DNA of 64,000 nt from Patescibacteria group bacterium. GTDB taxonomy: Bacteria; Patescibacteriota; Microgenomatia; UBA1406; GWC2-37-13. The notes beneath the pieces were generated by a model that saw only the letters and a program-made list of their open reading frames with translations, was not told the DNA's origin and did no database searches. A program made the translations under genes and the position numbers. Shown here in pieces: positions 3,925 through 38,094 of the stretch. The stretch spans positions 186,001 through 250,000 of the forward strand of contig JANWUX010000002.1 of assembly GCA_025057905.1 (NCBI GenBank), given 5' to 3'. Numbering within the stretch: position 1 is the stretch's first letter; each line of letters opens with the position of its first letter.

Positions 3925-3950
3925 TGACATTCACCTCCTTCTTTCGATAG

Positions 3951-4490
3951 CTAACTTTTAACCTGAGACTTTTCCTTAAGGACAAACAACAGCTGTCTTA
4001 GCGGATACCCAAGAGTGTGTCTAAGTCGATAGGCCGGAGATTTTAAAGAAAAAATCAGTTTGACCATCAGATCCTTTCTTCCTGGCAGTTGAGCGATCAT
4101 CTCTAACTGCTGGCTTGAATAAATTTGATTGTCAAGAAGGCCAAACTTAAAATTTAAGGATTTTCCCTTTTTCATAAACTCAAACAGCGTTTTTATCTCC
4201 TCACTCCAGTCAGTCTCAAAAGTAACCAGTGCTGATGGCTCTTTGAGGGGAAAAAACTCTCTTTTGAGTTTTTGAAAAACTGGATTAGTTCTTGATAGTA
4301 AATTCACTGTTTTTTCAAAGAGAGTGTTTTTGACTACTTTTAGCTGACTACTTTTTTTTCTTAACTCGTTTCTGAGTGACTCAAGGACCTGATGAGGCGT
4401 CTGGCCAAATTTTAGAAGAACAAAGCTAGTCTTTCCTTGGAGAGATTCAAGAAGAATTTTGACTTTGAGTTTTTTTCTTTGGTTAACCAT
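3951..4490 (-). CDS. rplJ: Ribosomal protein uL10
   Basis: Base of the ribosomal stalk, holding bL12 dimers on 23S rRNA. At 179 aa it has the usual length. The N-terminal rRNA-binding domain shows LESLRNELRKKSSQLKVVKNTL, the typical L10 pattern, and the C-terminal helices bind L12. It is the first gene of rplJL and is preceded by a structured leader (see 4491-4560). rplK and rplA do not lie immediately upstream, so the stalk genes are separated from the usual rplKAJL cluster. Confidence 0.92.
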   Translation of the reverse strand: MVNQRKKLKVKILLESLQGKTSFVLLKFGQTPHQVLESLRNELRKKSSQLKVVKNTLFEKTVNLLSRTNPVFQKLKREFFPLKEPSALVTFETDWSEEIKTLFEFMKKGKSLNFKFGLLDNQIYSSQQLEMIAQLPGRKDLMVKLIFSLKSPAYRLRHTLGYPLRQLLFVLKEKSQVKS

Positions 4491-4560
4491 ATCGTCCTCG
4501 CCGGGAATTTGTCTTACATTCCCAGTTTTTTCTTGGGAAAAGCCCGGGTCTTTGGATAAA
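4491..4560 (-). promoter_or_regulatory. Putative L10 autoregulatory leader
   Basis: The untranslated stretch in front of rplJ has two possible hairpins in RNA sense: CCCA/TGGG around an A-rich loop, and GGGAAT/ATTCCC around a nine-base loop, flanked by CCCGGG and CCCGG. In many bacteria the rplJ leader binds L10-L12 and shuts off translation. The position fits, but I did not trace the kink-turn of the known family, so the function is inferred. Confidence 0.4.
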
Positions 4561-4565
4561 ATTAT

Positions 4566-4574
4566 ATTATATCA
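4566..4574 (-). promoter_or_regulatory. Extended -10 promoter for rplJL
   Basis: Read on the minus strand this is TGATATAAT, a consensus extended -10 (TGnTATAAT), placed just before the G/C-rich rplJ leader in the gap after rpmE. No good -35 was found, as expected for an extended -10 promoter. It would start the rplJ-rplL(-gyrB-ppa-gyrA) transcript. Confidence 0.5.
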
Positions 4575-4579
4575 AATAA

Positions 4580-4879
4580 TTAAATCTCCGATAAGAGTTC
4601 ACTTAGAGACTTAGTTCTTCTTTCTTCTTTCTCTTTTTTCTCTTTAGTCTTGGGTTTAACTTTTTTGTGATATTCTTGGGCTAGTTTCTGTTTTCTAAGG
4701 AAAGCGTTTATTTGACCTTTGGTGTCAATAAATTTTTGTTCGCCAGTATAGAAAGGATGACATTTGTAGCAAACTTCAACAGTAATGTTTTTCTTGGTCG
4801 ATCCGGTGGTGAAGGTGTAACCACAGGCGCAGGTGACGATCGCAACCTCGTAAAATTCGAGGTGAATGTTTGCCTTCAT
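4580..4879 (-). CDS. rpmE: Ribosomal protein bL31 with a basic C-terminal extension
   Basis: Large-subunit protein bridging to the 30S head. The first 65 residues are a zinc-type L31 with cysteine pairs in TCACGYTF and VCYKCHPFYTG. A lysine/glutamate-rich tail of about 35 residues (from KVKPKTKEKKEKEE) extends it to 99 aa, longer than the usual 70 or so. It is the last gene of a run hisS-prfA-rpmE, 34 bp after prfA. The rpmE-prfA neighbourhood is common in bacteria. Confidence 0.9.
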   Translation of the reverse strand: MKANIHLEFYEVAIVTCACGYTFTTGSTKKNITVEVCYKCHPFYTGEQKFIDTKGQINAFLRKQKLAQEYHKKVKPKTKEKKEKEERRTKSLSELLSEI

Positions 4880-4913
4880 AGACGGTTAATTATAACGATA
4901 AAAAGACAAAGAT

Positions 4914-5615
4914 TCAATGGTCCCCTTGATAAGCGAAGATCTTCTCCCAACGGCCCTCTTCGATCACTTCGGTTAGGATGTAAAAGCTTTTCCCAAGTCG
5001 GTGGTCAGTAATTCGATTTTGGGGAAAGTTGTAAGTGCGGATCTTTTCAGCTCGGTCGCCGCTGCCAACATTTTTAACATAGGAGGCGGTGAGGCCTCGT
5101 CTTTTTTCTTCCTCCAGCTGATGAAGTTTGGCCACAAGAAGGTTATAGGCAATCTTACGATTGGCTTCTTGATATCTTTCCCGAGAGGCGGTAGTGACAA
5201 TACCTGTTGGTTTGTGAACAAGCCTGACAGCCGTTGAGACTTTGTTCACGTTTTGACCACCATGACCTCCTGATCTGAAAAACTGCCACTCTAGATCATC
5301 GGGATTAATCTTGATATCAGACTTAACAATCTCTGGCAAAACAACGATAATGCAGGTGGAGGTGTGAATTCGGCCTCTTTTCTCTGTTTCGGGCACCCGC
5401 TGGACGCGATGGACGCCGGTTTCATTTTTGCAATAAGAGAAAACCTTATAACCAGTAATCTGAACAACATCATCGTCTATGTAAGCAAAGGTAAACCCTT
5501 TTCTTTGAGCAAACTTGACATAAGACAAAAGCAATTCTTTCATCCAGATTTTTGCCTCATCCCCACCAACGCCGGGTAAGGCTTCTATCGTCACCTTATT
5601 TTCGTTGATTACCAT
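4914..5615 (-). CDS. prfA: Peptide chain release factor 1, lacking domain I
   Basis: Class I release factor that reads UAA/UAG and releases the finished peptide. The codon-recognition loop has the PxT form ([11 protein letters not shown]), typical of RF1 rather than the SPF of RF2, and the catalytic loop has GGQ in [24 protein letters not shown] is another RF1 signature. At 233 aa it lacks about 110-120 N-terminal residues (domain I). The start overlaps the end of hisS by 20 bp and no missing part is encoded nearby, so this is a short protein, not a mis-called start. Confidence 0.9.
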
Positions 5616-6834
5616 TGGTTAATGACAAATTAATAATCTCAACCACTTGGTTGAGACTGACCAGCTTTTGTTCGCCAGTGGTCATTATCTTCAATCTTAC
5701 TAATTCTCTTTGAATCTCTTCTGGGCCAACAATAATGACAAAGATGATTCCTTTTCGATCGGCGTATTTGAGTTGTTTTTCAAATGAAGTGTCGGTTTCC
5801 AAATAAAGCTCGGTATTGATTCTTTTTTTTCTGAAGAAATCAACTAGTTGCAAAGAATAGCTGAGAAGCCTAGAACTAAAGATGGTGACAAGAAGTTGGG
5901 TGTTGGTTTTGGGTGAGGTTTTTTTTGAAGTCAGATCAGTCGCTTCGATCAATCGATCAATACCAAAGGAAAAGCCGACCGCCGGGAGAGGTTTTTGAGT
6001 CAGTAATCCAAGCAACTGATCGTAGCGGCCACCACCGCCGAGAGAGATCGGCAGGCTTTCTTCAACGGCTTCGTAGATTATCCCGGTGTAATAGTCCAAT
6101 CCTCGAGCCAAAGTTGGGTCATAAAAAAAATCTTTTTCTTTTTGATAGCCCTTGTCTTCAAGCAATTGAAAAAGTTCTCGAAGTCGCTCAGAGGGTGGCT
6201 GATTTTTAATTTTTTTCATTAGTTGCTGCGCTTGATCAGGGCTTAAGCCCTTATCAACTAGTTCATCGATTACCATCTCTTCACCGATTTTTTTTAGCTT
6301 ATCAATCGAAGTGATCAATCGGTTATCAATACCACTAAAATTTCTTCGGTCGTTGATGGCGATTTTGACTTTATCTAGACTAAGAGAACGAAAAATAGTC
6401 AGAGAGAGATTGATAATTTCAAAATCAGCTAGAAGTGATGAGGTGCCAACAATATCAACATCTGCCTGAACAAATTCTCGATAACGGCCTTTTTGGGGAT
6501 TCTCAGCACGCCAAACCGGTTGAATTTGGTATCTTTTAAAGGGAAAAACAAGCTGGTTAAAGTGTTGGCCAATAACCCGAGCCAAAGGAATTGTCTGATC
6601 ATACTTCAGGCCAATCTTTCTTCCGCCACGGTCCTTAAAAAGATAGATTAGCTTATCCGCTTCCTGGCCATACTTACCCAAAAGGGTTTCGGCCAGCTCA
6701 AGTGCCGGTGTTTCCAGTGGATCAAAACCAAACCTTTCAAAGATTTCTTTCAGTTTGTTGATGAGCCGTTGTCTTTTTATTGATTCCTCTGGTAGAAAGT
6801 CGCGGAACCCTTTCAATCTCTGAATCATACCCAA
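5596..6834 (-). CDS. hisS: Histidyl-tRNA synthetase
   Basis: Class II aminoacyl-tRNA synthetase charging tRNA-His, 412 aa. The start shows [12 protein letters not shown] and the dimer-interface motif 1. Motif 2 is [21 protein letters not shown], the histidine-binding segments are [13 protein letters not shown] and [11 protein letters not shown], and motif 3 is [11 protein letters not shown]. An anticodon-binding domain forms the last 90 or so residues. It overlaps prfA by 20 bp, suggesting coupled translation. Confidence 0.96.
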
Positions 6835-31126: not shown

Positions 31127-31933
31127 GCTTTTTTGTCCCTAACCTTCGGTCTTTCCTGTTAGTCCTTCTTGCCTTTTTGTCCCAAACCTTCGGTCAGAGG
31201 ATTTAATTTCGATGCCTTTTTGTCCCTAACCTTCGGTCCTTCCCGCAATGGCACGAGCCTTTTTGTCCCTAACCTTCGGTCTTGCTGGCAGGTTAATTCG
31301 CCTTTTTGTCCCTAACCTTCGGTCATAATAAAAGAGCAGGAAAGCCTTTTTGTCCCTAACCTTCGGTCTTTTTTGTTTTTTGGATTGGCCTTTTTGTCCC
31401 TAACCTTCGGTCAAAGGTGGTAAGAGGTAATGCCTTTTTGTCCCTAACCTTCGGTCCCTTAAAAAATCTAAAAAGCCTTTTTGTCCCTAACCTTCGGTCG
31501 ATTACCAGTTAGATTTTGCCTTTTTGTCCCTAACCTTCGGTCTTTTATTTTTCCTCCTTAAGCCTTTTTGTCCCTAACCTTCGGTCTATCAACTTGATTT
31601 TTATTGCCTTTTTGTCCCTAACCTTCGGTCTATGGTTGACACGGTTTTGCCTTTTTGTCCCTAACCTTCGGTCCGGGGAAGATGGAGTGTTGCCTTTTTG
31701 TCCCTAACCTTCGGTCAGCCAAGTTTGGTTTAGTCGCCTTTTTGTCCCTAACCTTCGGTCAATGTTCTGTGAAGAAGAGCCTTTTTGTCCCTAACCTTCG
31801 GTCTCGCCAATTGCCCTTTGCTGCCTTTTTGTCCCTAACCTTCGGTCGGCTTTCTGGTAGCTGATGCCTTTTTGTCCCTAACCTTCGGTCTCCCTGTCTG
31901 TTTTTCAAGCCTTTTTGTCCCTAACCTTCGGTC
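31127..31933 (-). CRISPR. Type V-D CRISPR array: 19 repeats of 25 nt, 18 spacers of 18-19 nt
   Basis: Repeats start at 31127, 31171, 31214, 31257, 31300, 31344, 31388, 31432, 31475, 31518, 31562, 31606, 31649, 31692, 31736, 31779, 31823, 31866 and 31909. In crRNA sense (minus strand) the repeat begins GACCGAAGGTTAGGG and ends ACAAAAAGGC. All copies are identical except the first two on the left, each with one change, so the old end is at 31127 and the leader is on the cas1 side. Very short spacers and the repeat ending are typical of Cas12d (CasY) loci as I remember them. All 18 spacers differ. Confidence 0.98.
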
Positions 31934-32055: not shown

Positions 32056-33087
32056 ATGTCTTATAATAGAAAAAAGTATCTTTGGCTTCCCTATCTTAAG
32101 GCAGTCCAGATAAAGCCAAAAACTGTTGCTTTCATTTACAAAGGTGGCATCACGGAAATTGATTGGGTGAAGATTCATTCGATAATGATTTATGGTGATA
32201 GCTGTGATCTGCCAGTGGAGTTAGTTGACAAATGTGCCTTTTACAAAATACCAATTGTCTTTCATCGACGCAATCTCGCCCGTGCTAGTCTGATACTTCC
32301 TAGTCCAACCGGGGAAACCCAAGATCTTCTTGGCTACCAGGTGAGGGTAAGAGACAATCTAAAGAAGAGAACCTATATTGCCAAAAGATTAGTCCTGGCG
32401 AAGTTTAAGGGAATGACCTGGCTTGTGCCCTCAGCCTGCGACTATTTGTTTGGAGTGGCCAATCTTCAAAAAATCAGAAACATCGAGGCCTGGCATGCCC
32501 GCCGGTATTGGCAGGAGTATTTCACCAAGTTAGGTCTAGAGAAAAAAAGACGGGAGAGTAACAATGAAGTTCAGAAAGCTCTAAATGCCGTATCCAAGTT
32601 TGTGGTTGGAATTGTTCTTCGCTGGGTTCTCTATCATAATCTAAGTCCTTATCATGGTTTTCTTCACCAACCAACCGATTATCCGGCGCTTATTTATGAC
32701 CTAATTGAGCCTTATCGGGGCTATTTTGATAGAGTTGTTTTTGAAGCTTATAGAGAAATGCAAGAAAATTCTAAAGACCGATCAACTTCTTTCGTAGCCA
32801 TGGCGATTGAAAAAATCAAAGATTTTCTCGAGAAAAAAATCTATGTTCACAGTACCCGGCAGATAGCAACTTTTCATGAACTTCTTCACGGGGTGGTTTT
32901 ATCTCTTCGAGTCTATCTTCTTGGAGAGACAAGGCGCTTTGTAGTTCCTCTTCCTGATCAACCCAAAGGTGGTCGCCCGATTAAAGCTTTCTATAAACTC
33001 TATGGCCGGACGGCAGGAGTGACTGATTTTTGGGAACAAGCTAAGAAATTAAGTCTTCAGGTGTCAACTTCTTCAGTGACAAATTAA
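32056..33087 (+). CDS. cas1: CRISPR-associated endonuclease Cas1 (type V-D)
   Basis: Integrase that inserts new spacers at the leader end. 343 aa. The N-terminal beta domain (FIYKGGITEIDWVKIHSIMI) is followed by the helical catalytic domain with the three metal ligands in recognisable places: Glu in IEAWHARRYWQEYF, His in LSPYHGFLHQP and Asp in ALIYDLIEPYRGYF. No cas2 or cas4 accompanies it, as in other type V-D loci; Cas1 of this group is thought to handle the unusually short spacers by itself. It converges on cas12d with a 47-bp overlap of coding ends. No clear Shine-Dalgarno. Confidence 0.96.
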   Translation: MSYNRKKYLWLPYLKAVQIKPKTVAFIYKGGITEIDWVKIHSIMIYGDSCDLPVELVDKCAFYKIPIVFHRRNLARASLILPSPTGETQDLLGYQVRVRDNLKKRTYIAKRLVLAKFKGMTWLVPSACDYLFGVANLQKIRNIEAWHARRYWQEYFTKLGLEKKRRESNNEVQKALNAVSKFVVGIVLRWVLYHNLSPYHGFLHQPTDYPALIYDLIEPYRGYFDRVVFEAYREMQENSKDRSTSFVAMAIEKIKDFLEKKIYVHSTRQIATFHELLHGVVLSLRVYLLGETRRFVVPLPDQPKGGRPIKAFYKLYGRTAGVTDFWEQAKKLSLQVSTSSVTN

Positions 33088-36000
33088 CTCCTGATTTTCT
33101 CAAGTGAGAGAGATACGCGAGGGTTTCTTCAAAGAGATTAATATTTTCGCTTTGGAGAGGATTTTTGTCTCTCAGATAACCTCTTAAGGCCATAACAAAG
33201 GCAGCTTGAAGATCAGCATCAAAAATTTTCAGACAATCTTCGAAGGGACAAACAAATATCGCTGAGTTTCCGCGGGTTTTTTTTATTTTTTTTAACTTCT
33301 TAGAATTAAGCCTCAAAAAAGCGAGCAACACCTCGCTTTTTTCAAGTGGAGGTCGAGCAAACCTTCTAACTACCTTTAGGAATTCTTTTTCATCACTCTC
33401 GCTCTTTTTGAAAAGATAACCGGCAGTGTGATTTTTGTTTGAGGTGTAGCCAAGAAGAATCCCTTCAGGAGTTTTTATTCGTATTATGTTTTTAATTCCA
33501 TTCTTATTAATTCTTTCGCAAATAGAAACGCTTTTTTCTTGAAGATAATTAGTTATTCTGTAAAGACTTCGACCACAGGCACAGCAAGTATAACTCGAAG
33601 CAAAGGCGGAAAGATTCTTTCCCACAGTTAAATTCTTGAATGATTTTAATCCTAATCCCCAAACATGCTTGATAGTGGCTCTATCAGCATCATTATCGCC
33701 GGGAACATCAGAGCGTTTGATCGAGTCATAAATCTTCGTGACTCGACCGCTACCTGTTTCGAAGTTGCTAATTGAGTATTCATAAACAATCGGCGATTTA
33801 TATTTAATAAACAAATCATGAATTTGATTGCGAATCTCTTTGATGGCGTTCTCTCTAATTTTTTGAAGAAGAGAGGTGATGGTGATGAATATCCCATGTC
33901 TTGACCGGCGCTGAATTTTTTCGTAGGCATCTCTAATTTTTCGGATGTTACTGCTTTTTAGGTACTCGGCTTTGATAATTTCAAAGGGGTTTCTAGAAAA
34001 ATCCACGAGAGCGAAGGCGACACCATACTCACCAGCATCAATCCCTAAGTAGAGATTGGAACTATAAAGAGTGGTAGTTCTTTTACCTGTGATGGTAAAT
34101 GGAATGGCATAGTAGAGTTTTTTTCTTAAGTGAGAAGAGTTAGTCGTGACAGTTTCTGTTTCTAAATCAAAATTAATCTCGTGAGCAATCTCCAAAATAA
34201 TTGATGGTCCATTGATCTCAATCTCTGCTTGCTCCCAAGATTTAGGTCGGTAGATAAGCCGGTCAAGAAATTGAGTCTGGTAGAAAGAAGAAGAAATTTT
34301 GAAATTCAGATTGTCTCGAAGGCGGGTTATTTCTATAGGCTTTATCTCATTTTTATCAATTAAGAAAGTCTTGGTTTTTTCTTTAGAAGAAAGCTCTCTT
34401 TTAGCGAAACTTTCGTCAAAAACAACAAAGAATTGATGACGTGAGCTAACAACTTCTTTTCTTTTTTTATTGAATTCTTCTTGGCTCATGGGATCAGGAA
34501 GATGAAGAATAAGAGGAAATCTCTTGTTACTGTTGATGATCTGAAGAGTGTAGCGGCTGATCTCGATCTTTTTTGAGTAAAGATTGAGAGCACCTCGCAG
34601 ATCGGACAAGAAATACCGATTAAAGAGACTATTCAAGACTTTTTTTTCCAAGATTACTCTTGACCCCTCGTTGCCTTTATGATGAAGGCTCAGGAAGTCA
34701 AGAACTCTATCAAAAACTTTTAATTGATGAAGTATTTTAGGATCTAGATCTAAATTGGACTGCGAATTGAAATTAATTAATAGGGCTAGAACCGTTTTTG
34801 AGGTTTCAACAAAATCAAGAGCCAGTTTTGGATCAAAGTAAAAATCTTTATTTCTTGAGCTAAGATCAATCAAAAAATTTGAAAATTGATTTAAGATCAG
34901 CTTAATTGATTCAAAAGGATCCATGTTTGTCGAAAGAGACAGAAGTCTTCTGGTTGAGGAAGCGTGGGGGTTTTTAAAGAAAATATATTTTTCTGGATGG
35001 CTAAAGATTTCTGAGATGTTCTCGCGTTGATCAATAAAAGGGGTGAGAATTTTTTGGTATTGATTTTTGAAGACTTGAGTGTTGAGAACTTGGTTGGAGA
35101 TTTTTCTGAAAAAACGCTCAACAATTTCTTCAAGAGAGATTTCTCTCACTTCCTCTTCTAAAGAGTCAAAGGACTTAAGCTCAGTCAAACCGTTGTATTT
35201 ATCAAGGATTTGGCGAATGATCTTCATTCCTTCATTAATTTTCTTAGGGGTAAGCTTGACCCTTTCTTCTAGTTGAGCCCTTTTTGACTCACCATAGAAG
35301 TCAATTGGTTTTTTAATTTGCTCAAAGAGAAATTTGAATTGCCGATCTTTTGAGACTGAATCATCTTCATTTTTCTTGAGATATCGCTGAAAGTAATAAT
35401 TAGCTTGGGTTCTTACCTCTGCTAGATAATCCTCGAAGAAAGGAAACTTTTTTGGACTTTCTAAGATGTCGGGATTGTCTTGAAGCAATTTCTGAAGATT
35501 TAAGAGCCAGTCAATAAAAGTTTTTAGTAATCTTATATGCAATTTTTTCTTTTCGTCGATTCCTTTTTTAATTTTGTCTTGATGTTTACTGAGTGAGGAT
35601 ATTAGTTTTTCTAGATTTTGGAGAAACTTTTGATAGACTTCTCTTGACTCAAGTGTTCGATTGACAAAGTTGCTATACCAAGATTTTATTTTTCCACCAA
35701 AAACCATTCGGTACTCTTGCCAACCTTGAGTGACGAACTTAGGCTGACCGATTTTTTTGGCTTTATCAGCAAGATAATCAAGAGCCTTCATAAGAATCTC
35801 TTCCTCCTGGGAATTGAGTTTTTTGTCTATGAATGAACAAAGGCGCAAGTAAGCCTCAAAATTTGCCTGATAATCTTCAATTAGAGATCTATAGAATCGG
35901 CCTAGATAGTTAGAAAGAGAGTTAAAATCTTCAGCTAGTCCTAGAACAACTTCGCCTTGAATCAGAATTTCTTTCTCCGGTAACGAGAATATCTTTCTAA

Positions 36001-36787
36001 GAAGATTAATTCGATCGTTGATTAATTCTTCGATTGGAACCTTTGATCGATCGTCTAATTTTACCAGCGTGGGAATGATGAAGTTTGTCAGGTCGCCAAC
36101 TTTTTCCTGAGGTTGGATGTCTTTTTCCTGAGATTCTGGGGATATCCTCTGAAAATTTAGATTAAATTCATCTTTCCAAAATTTAAGCTGGTCTTTGCCT
36201 TCTAAGACAAGCTTTTCGCCATCTTTGAAGAATTTGTCAACAATAGTGTCAATAAGTTCCTTTGCTTTCTGGTCTGTGATAATCATCTTTTCCACCTTTT
36301 TTCCAGGATCTTGGTTCGTTTTGTAGTCATCTTTTAGAATGTCAATGAGTCGCTGGCGAAATTTCTCTCGGCTAAGAGTTATTCTTACTGGATCAGAAAG
36401 AATAACTTGCTCGATAAATTTACCTTTATCAAAAAAAGTTCTTATTCTCTCGTCGGCCTGAGTGAAAATTACTTCAGCCGGTGAAGGAATATCAAAAACT
36501 TGGCATAGGAAATGAATTAATTTTTTTCTTGTAGGTTGAAAAATAACCCCCGAGCGAAGGGAGTCGACCCAGAAATCAAAAAGGTTATATTCGTCCTGAG
36601 TTTGAAGATAATCAGCCACGCTGCCAATTCCACGGGTTTTCTGATCATCAAAGACAATCTTCTCAAAAAAATTCACTAGGCTGTCTGGGCTAAGAGATGG
36701 AGGCGAAATTAGTGGGTACTTGATTGTTCTTGTGATCTTGCCTTTTGCAAGGTTGACTCGATTTAAGTGAACTCGATATCCTTTCAT
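33041..36787 (-). CDS. cas12d: Cas12d (CasY) RNA-guided DNA endonuclease
   Basis: 1248 aa type V-D effector. The N-terminus (MKGYRVHLNRV, RTIKYPLISP, LFDFWVDSLRSGVIFQP) and the segment KIKSWYSNF resemble the Katanobacteria CasY as I remember it. The C-terminal RuvC nuclease is split as usual: RuvC-I Asp917 in YLGIDAGEYGVAFAL, RuvC-II Glu1003 in VYEYSISNFETG, and RuvC-III Asp1190/Asp1192 in FDADLQAAF. A zinc ribbon has Cys1068/1069/1071 (TCCACGR) and Cys1180/Cys1185 (CPFEDC, wider than CxxC). All catalytic acids are present, so it should cut. The leader upstream holds the scoutRNA candidate. No HNH domain. Confidence 0.95.
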   Translation of the reverse strand: MKGYRVHLNRVNLAKGKITRTIKYPLISPPSLSPDSLVNFFEKIVFDDQKTRGIGSVADYLQTQDEYNLFDFWVDSLRSGVIFQPTRKKLIHFLCQVFDIPSPAEVIFTQADERIRTFFDKGKFIEQVILSDPVRITLSREKFRQRLIDILKDDYKTNQDPGKKVEKMIITDQKAKELIDTIVDKFFKDGEKLVLEGKDQLKFWKDEFNLNFQRISPESQEKDIQPQEKVGDLTNFIIPTLVKLDDRSKVPIEELINDRINLLRKIFSLPEKEILIQGEVVLGLAEDFNSLSNYLGRFYRSLIEDYQANFEAYLRLCSFIDKKLNSQEEEILMKALDYLADKAKKIGQPKFVTQGWQEYRMVFGGKIKSWYSNFVNRTLESREVYQKFLQNLEKLISSLSKHQDKIKKGIDEKKKLHIRLLKTFIDWLLNLQKLLQDNPDILESPKKFPFFEDYLAEVRTQANYYFQRYLKKNEDDSVSKDRQFKFLFEQIKKPIDFYGESKRAQLEERVKLTPKKINEGMKIIRQILDKYNGLTELKSFDSLEEEVREISLEEIVERFFRKISNQVLNTQVFKNQYQKILTPFIDQRENISEIFSHPEKYIFFKNPHASSTRRLLSLSTNMDPFESIKLILNQFSNFLIDLSSRNKDFYFDPKLALDFVETSKTVLALLINFNSQSNLDLDPKILHQLKVFDRVLDFLSLHHKGNEGSRVILEKKVLNSLFNRYFLSDLRGALNLYSKKIEISRYTLQIINSNKRFPLILHLPDPMSQEEFNKKRKEVVSSRHQFFVVFDESFAKRELSSKEKTKTFLIDKNEIKPIEITRLRDNLNFKISSSFYQTQFLDRLIYRPKSWEQAEIEINGPSIILEIAHEINFDLETETVTTNSSHLRKKLYYAIPFTITGKRTTTLYSSNLYLGIDAGEYGVAFALVDFSRNPFEIIKAEYLKSSNIRKIRDAYEKIQRRSRHGIFITITSLLQKIRENAIKEIRNQIHDLFIKYKSPIVYEYSISNFETGSGRVTKIYDSIKRSDVPGDNDADRATIKHVWGLGLKSFKNLTVGKNLSAFASSYTCCACGRSLYRITNYLQEKSVSICERINKNGIKNIIRIKTPEGILLGYTSNKNHTAGYLFKKSESDEKEFLKVVRRFARPPLEKSEVLLAFLRLNSKKLKKIKKTRGNSAIFVCPFEDCLKIFDADLQAAFVMALRGYLRDKNPLQSENINLFEETLAYLSHLRKSGVNLSLKKLTPEDLIS

Positions 36788-36792
36788 TTCTT

Positions 36793-36892
36793 AAAAGCGC
36801 GCCCAGGCAGTCTGACCTCATGTGGTCGAAAAGGCAACCTGATGAAAACTTCATCAGGGAAAAACCACCTGAGCGCGGTGGGTTAGGGACCC
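36793..36892 (-). ncRNA. Candidate scoutRNA (crRNA partner) in the cas12d leader
   Basis: Unannotated structured region. The plus-strand bases 36881-36890 (GGTTAGGGAC) match ten bases of the crRNA-sense repeat, so the minus-strand RNA carries a perfect 10-nt antirepeat GUCCCUAACC starting about 3 nt from its predicted 5' end. Downstream it has a 10-bp closing stem (36868-36877 with 36798-36807, one G-U), a perfect 9-bp hairpin (36838-36858), a small hairpin (36814-36827) and a T-run (36793-36796). A second repeat-complementary stretch is GCCTTTT (36829-36835). Cas12d is known to need a scoutRNA; the assignment is inferred and no transcript has been seen. Confidence 0.75.
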
Positions 36893-36898
36893 AGTAAG

Positions 36899-36927
36899 AT
36901 CATATATGATTTTATTTTTAATTTCAA
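36899..36927 (-). promoter_or_regulatory. Predicted promoter of the scoutRNA candidate and cas12d
   Basis: On the minus strand TTGAAA (36922-36927) and TATGAT (36899-36904) are 17 bases apart. The predicted start is at about 36892, giving an RNA beginning GGGUCCCUAACC. No other good promoter was seen between it and the cas12d ATG, so the effector mRNA may be read through from here. The -35 is identical to that of cas1. Confidence 0.65.
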
Positions 36928-37215: not shown

Positions 37216-38094
37216 TTAACAAGGACACTCATCAAAGCAGCAAAACAAGTCCTTGATATAAAAACCATTTTGGAGATATTCTTTTTGGATCTTTTTTCTT
37301 TTTTTTAAATTTTTCCTGATTTTTTTGACAACTACCGGAATGCGCTGGTGAAATTTATAAATAAAACAAGAGATTGCTCCTTCATGCCTAACTTCTGGGC
37401 CAACTAAGAACAGGCCCGGCGTTCTCGTTGATTCATCATCTTCAGTCAAGGTAGGTTTTGAGGTTTTTTTGTCCCAGTCAAATAAGTTCTTTATCAATAA
37501 CGATTGGTTTTTTTCCTAATTTCGACAACTCAATAAAAGCGCCCATTCCACTCTCATAACCACCAATTATAACTTCCCAATCGCCTTTTACTTGTTTAAA
37601 AGATTTAATCGATGAATAACGAAGGCAGTAATTACTTCCTTCAAAAGAAGGAATTTTCGGGTAAAAGAACTCGCCGGCAGACCAAATAATTATCTTGGCC
37701 AAAAAAATTGCTTAAGTTGTCTCGATCGAAAAAATATCATTTTCTTCTTTCACTGTCATTACTCTAACTTTAGTCATTATTTGAAGATTAAAAAAATTGC
37801 TACTTTTTTTAAATAAGTGGCATATTCTAAACCGCTCGGATGCTCGGTTTGCAGAATAAAAGCTGGGGAAATCTCGGGGCTGACAGCGTATAAATCGATC
37901 ATTCCAAAAAAATTCCCAATAATAAATGAGAGATAAAACTTGTTTCTTTAGGCCTATTCATAAATGAAGCCCCGACTTGGTCCTTTTCAAGAATTAAAAA
38001 GTTTTGAAAATTTATCTTTTTTGGTAGAATCCCGATGCCTTATTACTGAAGCATCGGCACCGGCAATAATTATTTCTGTTTTAGGCCTTTTCAT
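37216..38094 (-). pseudogene. Broken FAD/NAD(P)-dependent oxidoreductase
   Basis: Pieces of one flavoprotein lie in several frames. It begins at an ATG at 38094 (MKRPKTEIIIAGADAS, a damaged first Rossmann GxGxxG). Middle pieces include MIDLYAVSPEISPAF and EHPSGLEYATYLKKVAIF, and then, after stops, AKIIIWSAGEFFYPKIPSFEG with VIIGGYESGMGAFIELSK (second Rossmann loop). A last piece, GLFLVGPEVRHEGAISCFIY, ends in a cysteine-rich tail (CCFDECPC). At least three stops or frameshifts break it. It resembles thioredoxin-reductase-like or CzcO-like oxidoreductases. It is non-functional unless the reads are wrong. Confidence 0.7.

Follow-up and report, generated by a model that had tools for sequence, protein, structure and literature searches.

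A predicted Cas12d scoutRNA with a long, tracrRNA-like antirepeat that changes together with the CRISPR repeat

The window, the whole 64-kb stretch of DNA analyzed here, encodes a predicted RNA that its sequence identifies as a Cas12d scoutRNA of a tracrRNA-like variant, whose transcription and function we infer. The element is very probably a trans-acting guide-RNA partner of the type V-D system that would be anchored to the crRNA at two points. In related bacteria the repeat and the RNA change together without losing their pairing, an indication that guide-RNA pairing in one branch of Cas12d is much longer than that of the family's 'short-complementarity' RNA.

The type V-D CRISPR-Cas locus in the window is complete and consists of the array, cas1, cas12d, and the upstream RNA (Table 1), so that a Cas12d effector and a CRISPR array share the locus of the RNA. 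Judged by its relatives in the searches, the genome is of the Patescibacteria (CPR) type. The cas12d gene is intact, and the RuvC motifs of its product (D917, E1003/E1010, and D1190/D1192) are invariant in the family alignment. The crRNA-sense repeat of the array is GACCGAAGGTTAGGGACAAAAAGGC, and the period is 43–44. On the minus strand at 37216–37702, directly upstream of the RNA, a pyridine nucleotide-disulphide oxidoreductase (PF13738) survives as decayed fragments.

Table 1. Features of the type V-D locus in the window (positions within the window).
Feature	Position	Strand	Remarks
CRISPR array	31127–31933	−	19 repeats of 25 nt, 18–19 nt spacers
cas1	32056–33087	+	Pfam PF01867, E 7.9e-24; TIGR00287
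cas12d	33041–36787	−	1248 aa; NF033951, 1177 bits, full model covered
Predicted scoutRNA/tracrRNA of the Cas12d system	36793–36892	−	Fold z −4.8; same core 5′ of cas12d in relatives
Small 5′ hairpin holding the antirepeat (UGGGU/ACCCA)	36879–36893	−	Predicted fold; equivalent arms in relatives
Antirepeat GUCCCUAACC	36881–36890	−	Pairs with repeat nt 8–17 by sequence
Closing stem, 5′ arm	36868–36877	−	Predicted fold
Closing stem, 3′ arm	36798–36807	−	Predicted fold
Inner hairpin, 9 bp, perfect	36838–36858	−	Predicted fold
Second antirepeat (dock) GCCUUUU	36829–36835	−	Pairs with repeat nt 19–25, adjoining the spacer
Small hairpin GACC/GGUC	36814–36827	−	Predicted fold; only some relatives have one
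Promoter TTGAAA-17-TATGAT	36899–36927	−	10/12 consensus match

The sequence-only reading had noted that plus-strand 36881–36890 is identical to ten bases of the repeat. These letters are GGTTAGGGAC, nucleotides 8–17 of the crRNA-sense repeat, and the predicted minus-strand RNA of about 100 nt begins with their exact complement, GTCCCTAACC. This complement occurs in the window 18 times on the plus strand, always within the array, and once on the minus strand, at the antirepeat; 0.03 matches would be expected by chance in 64 kb. A match of at least 10 nt within 200 nt upstream of cas12d arose in 7 of 2000 shuffles. The match at this single locus was thus suggestive, and relatives were therefore examined; the comparative data are decisive. 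A chance match is possible for one locus but is ruled out by the relatives.

The predicted minimum free energy of the window RNA is −47.9 kcal/mol compared to −30.1 kcal/mol for shuffled sequences, none of which was as stable (0/200). The fold reproduces the proposed closing stem (10 bp, one G-U) together with the 9-bp hairpin and the small hairpin that had been proposed with it. No Rfam family matched the RNA region above its gathering score. A second antirepeat, absent from the earlier reading, complements the final 7 nt of the repeat (GCCTTTT in the DNA). GCCUU is present at the same place in every RNA placed and pairs by sequence with the invariant AAGGC at the repeat 3′ end; because this target is invariant, the dock cannot give a covariation signal. 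The GCCUU of the Cas12d RNAs corresponds to the published scoutRNA 'dock'.

Searching whole genomes for the family and scanning genome contigs by alignment yielded 16 Cas12d loci, the window among them. Single-protein scans of genome contigs and viral contigs returned no relatives, and neither did phage and plasmid collections. Two candidates were rejected: a putative array in genome G618 for locus L018 lies within ordinary coding sequence, and L016 (6205–8715 of G309:C53), in a genome of the same family, encodes not Cas12d but Cas12e (CasX), 837 aa, with an array of 37-nt repeats.

An antirepeat of 9–12 nt is found at the same place in 11 of these loci, counting the window, which represent about six or seven lineages. 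All 11 antirepeats share one register (repeat nt 7–9 to 17–18) and lie directly 5′ of the closing stem, and each matches the repeat of its own locus, though the repeats differ. Loci L010, L011, L013, and L014 have the repeat CATCGAAAGTTAGGAACTAAAAGGC and an 11-nt antirepeat, AGTTCCTAACT, 5′ of cas12d. The repeat and antirepeat are CTCCGAAAGTTAGGAACCAAAAGGC and GGTTCCTAAC at L015, CACCGAAGGTTAGGGACAAAAAGGC and GTCCCTAACC at L042, and CTCCGAAATTAGGTGGTGAAAAGGC and CACCACCTAA (10 nt) at L066. The cas12d gene of L042, a close relative, is split into two frames of 935 and 322 aa (3937–6742 and beyond, G733:C3:49338-52818), by natural decay or an assembly error, and its 30-repeat array and RNA look intact.

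Three loci were read out of sample. The antirepeats of L012, L019, and L044 (GGGTCCCTAACCC; CACCACCTAAAT) were read before any array was known; searching the same genomes afterwards located arrays on other contigs, with the repeats CGCCGAAAGTTAGGGACAAAAAGGC, CACCGAATTTAGGTGGTGAAAAGGC, and CTCCGAATTTAGGTGGTGAAAAGGC. The antirepeats match their own repeats over 9, 12, and 12 nt, respectively, the L012 duplex being limited to 9 bp by a mismatched tenth position. Most loci match their own repeat over a greater length than the repeats of other loci, as at L019 (12 versus 6). Net binding after the cost of opening the hairpin is predicted as −7 to −17.5 kcal/mol for the long-antirepeat loci and as −1 to −3 kcal/mol for three of the four loci outside their clade. 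A lack of conservation in related loci had been named in advance as a result that would count against the antirepeat; at these 11 loci it is conserved and covaries with its own repeat.

The pairing was analyzed in a gap-free repeat/antirepeat alignment of eight distinct rows. MAFFT alignments of whole RNAs misplaced the stems, and pairs were therefore counted on the gap-free alignment and complemented by a descriptor scan. Ninety percent of the cells pair, compared to 68% in shuffled alignments. Two-sided compensatory change is seen at 9 of the 12 pairs and one-sided change at none of the 12. The compensatory cells number 22 versus 6.1 in shuffles (0/500 as high), and the independent events are fewer than these 22 cells, since the rows form about three sequence classes (GGTTAGGGAC, AGTTAGGAACT, and TTTAGGTGGTG) in their repeat/antirepeat changes. 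Shifting the register drops pairing from 90% to 20–48% (45–48% for a shift by one). Single positions take several pair types, with AU, GC, and UA at repeat nt 8 and GC, UA, and CG at nt 18.

These data bear on the idea that the RNA is an ordinary short-complementarity scoutRNA in which the GCCUU dock works alone and the 5′ antirepeat is a functionless relic or a coincidence. Such an RNA would resemble most Cas12d loci outside the clade, which have only the dock, and the published scoutRNAs, which are described with docks of 3–5 nt (PMC9522604). A relic would decay, however, and instead both sides have changed together across lineages whose Cas12d proteins are mostly 30–45% identical. This disfavors a relic, and we consider a dock acting alone highly unlikely.

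The RNAs share a common order of parts: the antirepeat in a small hairpin, the closing stem, UUUCC or GUUCC, the inner hairpin, UUGCCUU, optional small hairpins, and the second arm of the closing stem. The sequences of the arms vary between lineages and their complementarity is kept. A descriptor built on this core finds the RNA at 11 loci and misses L019, L044, L066, and L053; stray matches number three in the loci and window and one in reversed controls. The proposal that the RNA is a candidate Cas12d scoutRNA thus gains support from its location, fold, and fitting dock and from the same core at Cas12d loci across the family.

Cas12d loci fall into two kinds. In L017, L047, L049, and L053, the repeat forms a hairpin of its own (−4.5 to −8.1 kcal/mol). 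L017, L049, and L053 have only the dock and lack the long antirepeat, the scoutRNA placement at L049 being uncertain. At the long-antirepeat loci, repeat folding is weak or absent (0 to −3.3 kcal/mol; −5.2 kcal/mol at L019). In protein trees, the long-antirepeat loci all fall on one side of a branch that is well supported (98 SH-aLRT in the longer set), and the same branch has 100/100 support in the tree without long branches. The long antirepeat marks one well-supported Cas12d clade, in which the internal hairpin of the repeat is weak or missing. The contrast in repeat folding and the single supported branch suggest that the internal hairpin gave way to a trans duplex a single time, in this clade. 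L047 lies outside the clade and its repeat forms a cis hairpin; its 9-nt match uses a different register (51/2000 shuffles), and the locus may be intermediate between the two kinds.

Several loci outside the clade differ in layout. In the L017 array, whose repeat we take to be the CasY.1 repeat, the last copy before cas12d doubles as the 5′ arm of the closing stem of the scoutRNA; the array end and the RNA gene thus overlap in this CasY.1-like locus. The L053 scoutRNA core (2807–2859) adjoins the array and is not directly 5′ of the effector. L049 (Deltaproteobacteria UBA2409), from a record that does not bear a Patescibacteria label, has Cas12d and an array of 39 copies.

The scoutRNA of Cas12d (CasY) is reportedly the subject of Harrington et al. 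2020, which may already contain long antirepeats in some Cas12d loci, the comparison here being by description only. The window RNA resembles the Cas12d scoutRNA in its type V-D locus, its position 5′ of cas12d on the same strand, and its closing stem, inner hairpin, and GCCUU dock. It differs from described scoutRNAs, which have been reported with 3–5 nt of complementarity (PMC9522604), in the added 5′ antirepeat held in a hairpin, 10 nt here and 9–12 nt in the clade. The earlier judgment that this antirepeat is long for a scoutRNA and closer to a tracrRNA therefore holds. Its premise that published scoutRNAs pair over only a few bases agrees with those descriptions but not with the Cas12c2 structure, which shows more pairing (PMC9522604).

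The Cas12c2 tracrRNA (scoutRNA) of Kurihara et al. 2022 has the order AR-1, stem 1, linker, stem 2, linker, dock (AR-2), and stem 1′, with its 5′ pairing segment directly before stem 1 (PMC9522604). The window RNA has the Cas12c2-type order AR-1, stem 1, linker, stem 2, dock, and stem 1′. In Cas12c2, separate segments of the tracrRNA pair with crRNA positions −18 to −12 and −11 to −8, and the dock pairs with −4 to −1 (PMC9522604). The crRNA footprint is close in the two systems, −18 to −8 and −4 to −1 in Cas12c2 and −18 to −9 and −7 to −1 here. Positions −18 to −8 of Cas12c2 pair with 4 nt at the 5′ end and 7 nt at the 3′ end, whereas one contiguous 5′ antirepeat directly before the closing stem spans −18 to −9 here. 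An AR-3 equivalent 3′ of stem 1 was not detected, with no match of at least 6 nt between the closing stem and the start codon. By analogy, the RNA would work like a Cas12c2-style guide scaffold. Its locus and core sequence make it a probable Cas12d scoutRNA, which the 'short complementarity' criterion does not, and on the reasoning of Kurihara et al. the term tracrRNA would apply to it. Like the tracrRNAs of types II, V-B, V-E, and V-K, it would be trans-encoded with an antirepeat of about ten bases or more; their duplexes, unlike this one, are longer and often bulged (30 bp in BhCas12b; PMC11246509), and their scaffold is different. Repeat/antirepeat layouts are given in PMC11246509 for V-B, -C, -E, -F, -G, -K, and Cas12l and none for V-D.

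The promoter proposed for the RNA was found as described (36927–36899). Its score is modest by itself, being equaled in 27 of 1000 shuffles, and a TATAAT-like −10 element stands at an equal distance in most relatives. In most of the long-antirepeat clade, a sigma-70-like promoter ends 6–8 nt upstream of the antirepeat, with the best scores at L014, L042, L012, and L013 and weak ones at L010, L015, and L044. The T-run proposed at the 3′ side did not stand up: it is merely CTTTTAA and no terminator was called, so the RNA may belong to the cas12d mRNA as its 5′ leader, the start codon lying 10 nt past the closing stem. A regulatory leader, in which crRNA pairing at the 5′ hairpin of the mRNA controls cas12d expression and not effector assembly, would explain the missing terminator and the end of the RNA segment 2–30 nt before cas12d, on the same strand, throughout the clade. 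The core and dock, however, fit a guide-RNA scaffold and the part order of the Cas12c2 tracrRNA (PMC9522604), and the L053 core is 1.1 kb from cas12d, beside the array. The probability of a purely regulatory leader is very small, and the leader and guide-partner roles are not mutually exclusive.

As a guide-RNA partner, the RNA of about 100 nt would be made from its own promoter or as the cas12d mRNA 5′ leader and would begin with the short hairpin displaying the antirepeat. This hairpin would open to form a 10-bp duplex with crRNA repeat nt 8–17 (−18 to −9 before the guide), and the dock inside the closed core would pair with the last 5–7 nt of the repeat adjoining the guide. Cas12d would bind the RNA pair anchored at these two points, leading to crRNA maturation and DNA targeting, and the trans duplex would take the place of the internal repeat hairpin of Cas12d systems outside the clade. 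Duplex formation in cells and a role in processing and cleavage are what we infer from this arrangement. The duplex could instead serve mainly to let RNase III mature the pre-crRNA, as happens in type II systems. An RNase III is encoded in the genome and the antirepeat resembles that of a tracrRNA, but a duplex of 10–12 bp is short for this enzyme. Maturation of crRNA in Cas12c proceeds without RNase III (PMC9522604), and a mainly processing role is very improbable.

There is a low but appreciable likelihood that the RNA is both the Cas12d guide-RNA partner and the cas12d mRNA leader, such that crRNA pairing with the first bases of the transcript builds the effector and adjusts its expression. 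If so, the replacement of a cis hairpin by a trans duplex in this clade would make the dual role possible. Short pairing is what sets scoutRNAs apart from tracrRNAs. Both kinds of RNA are present in related Cas12d lineages, and the way in which a guide RNA exchanges a hairpin within the repeat for a duplex in trans is therefore directly addressable, with exact RNA sequences supplied for testing with these Cas12d enzymes or for fusing into single guides.
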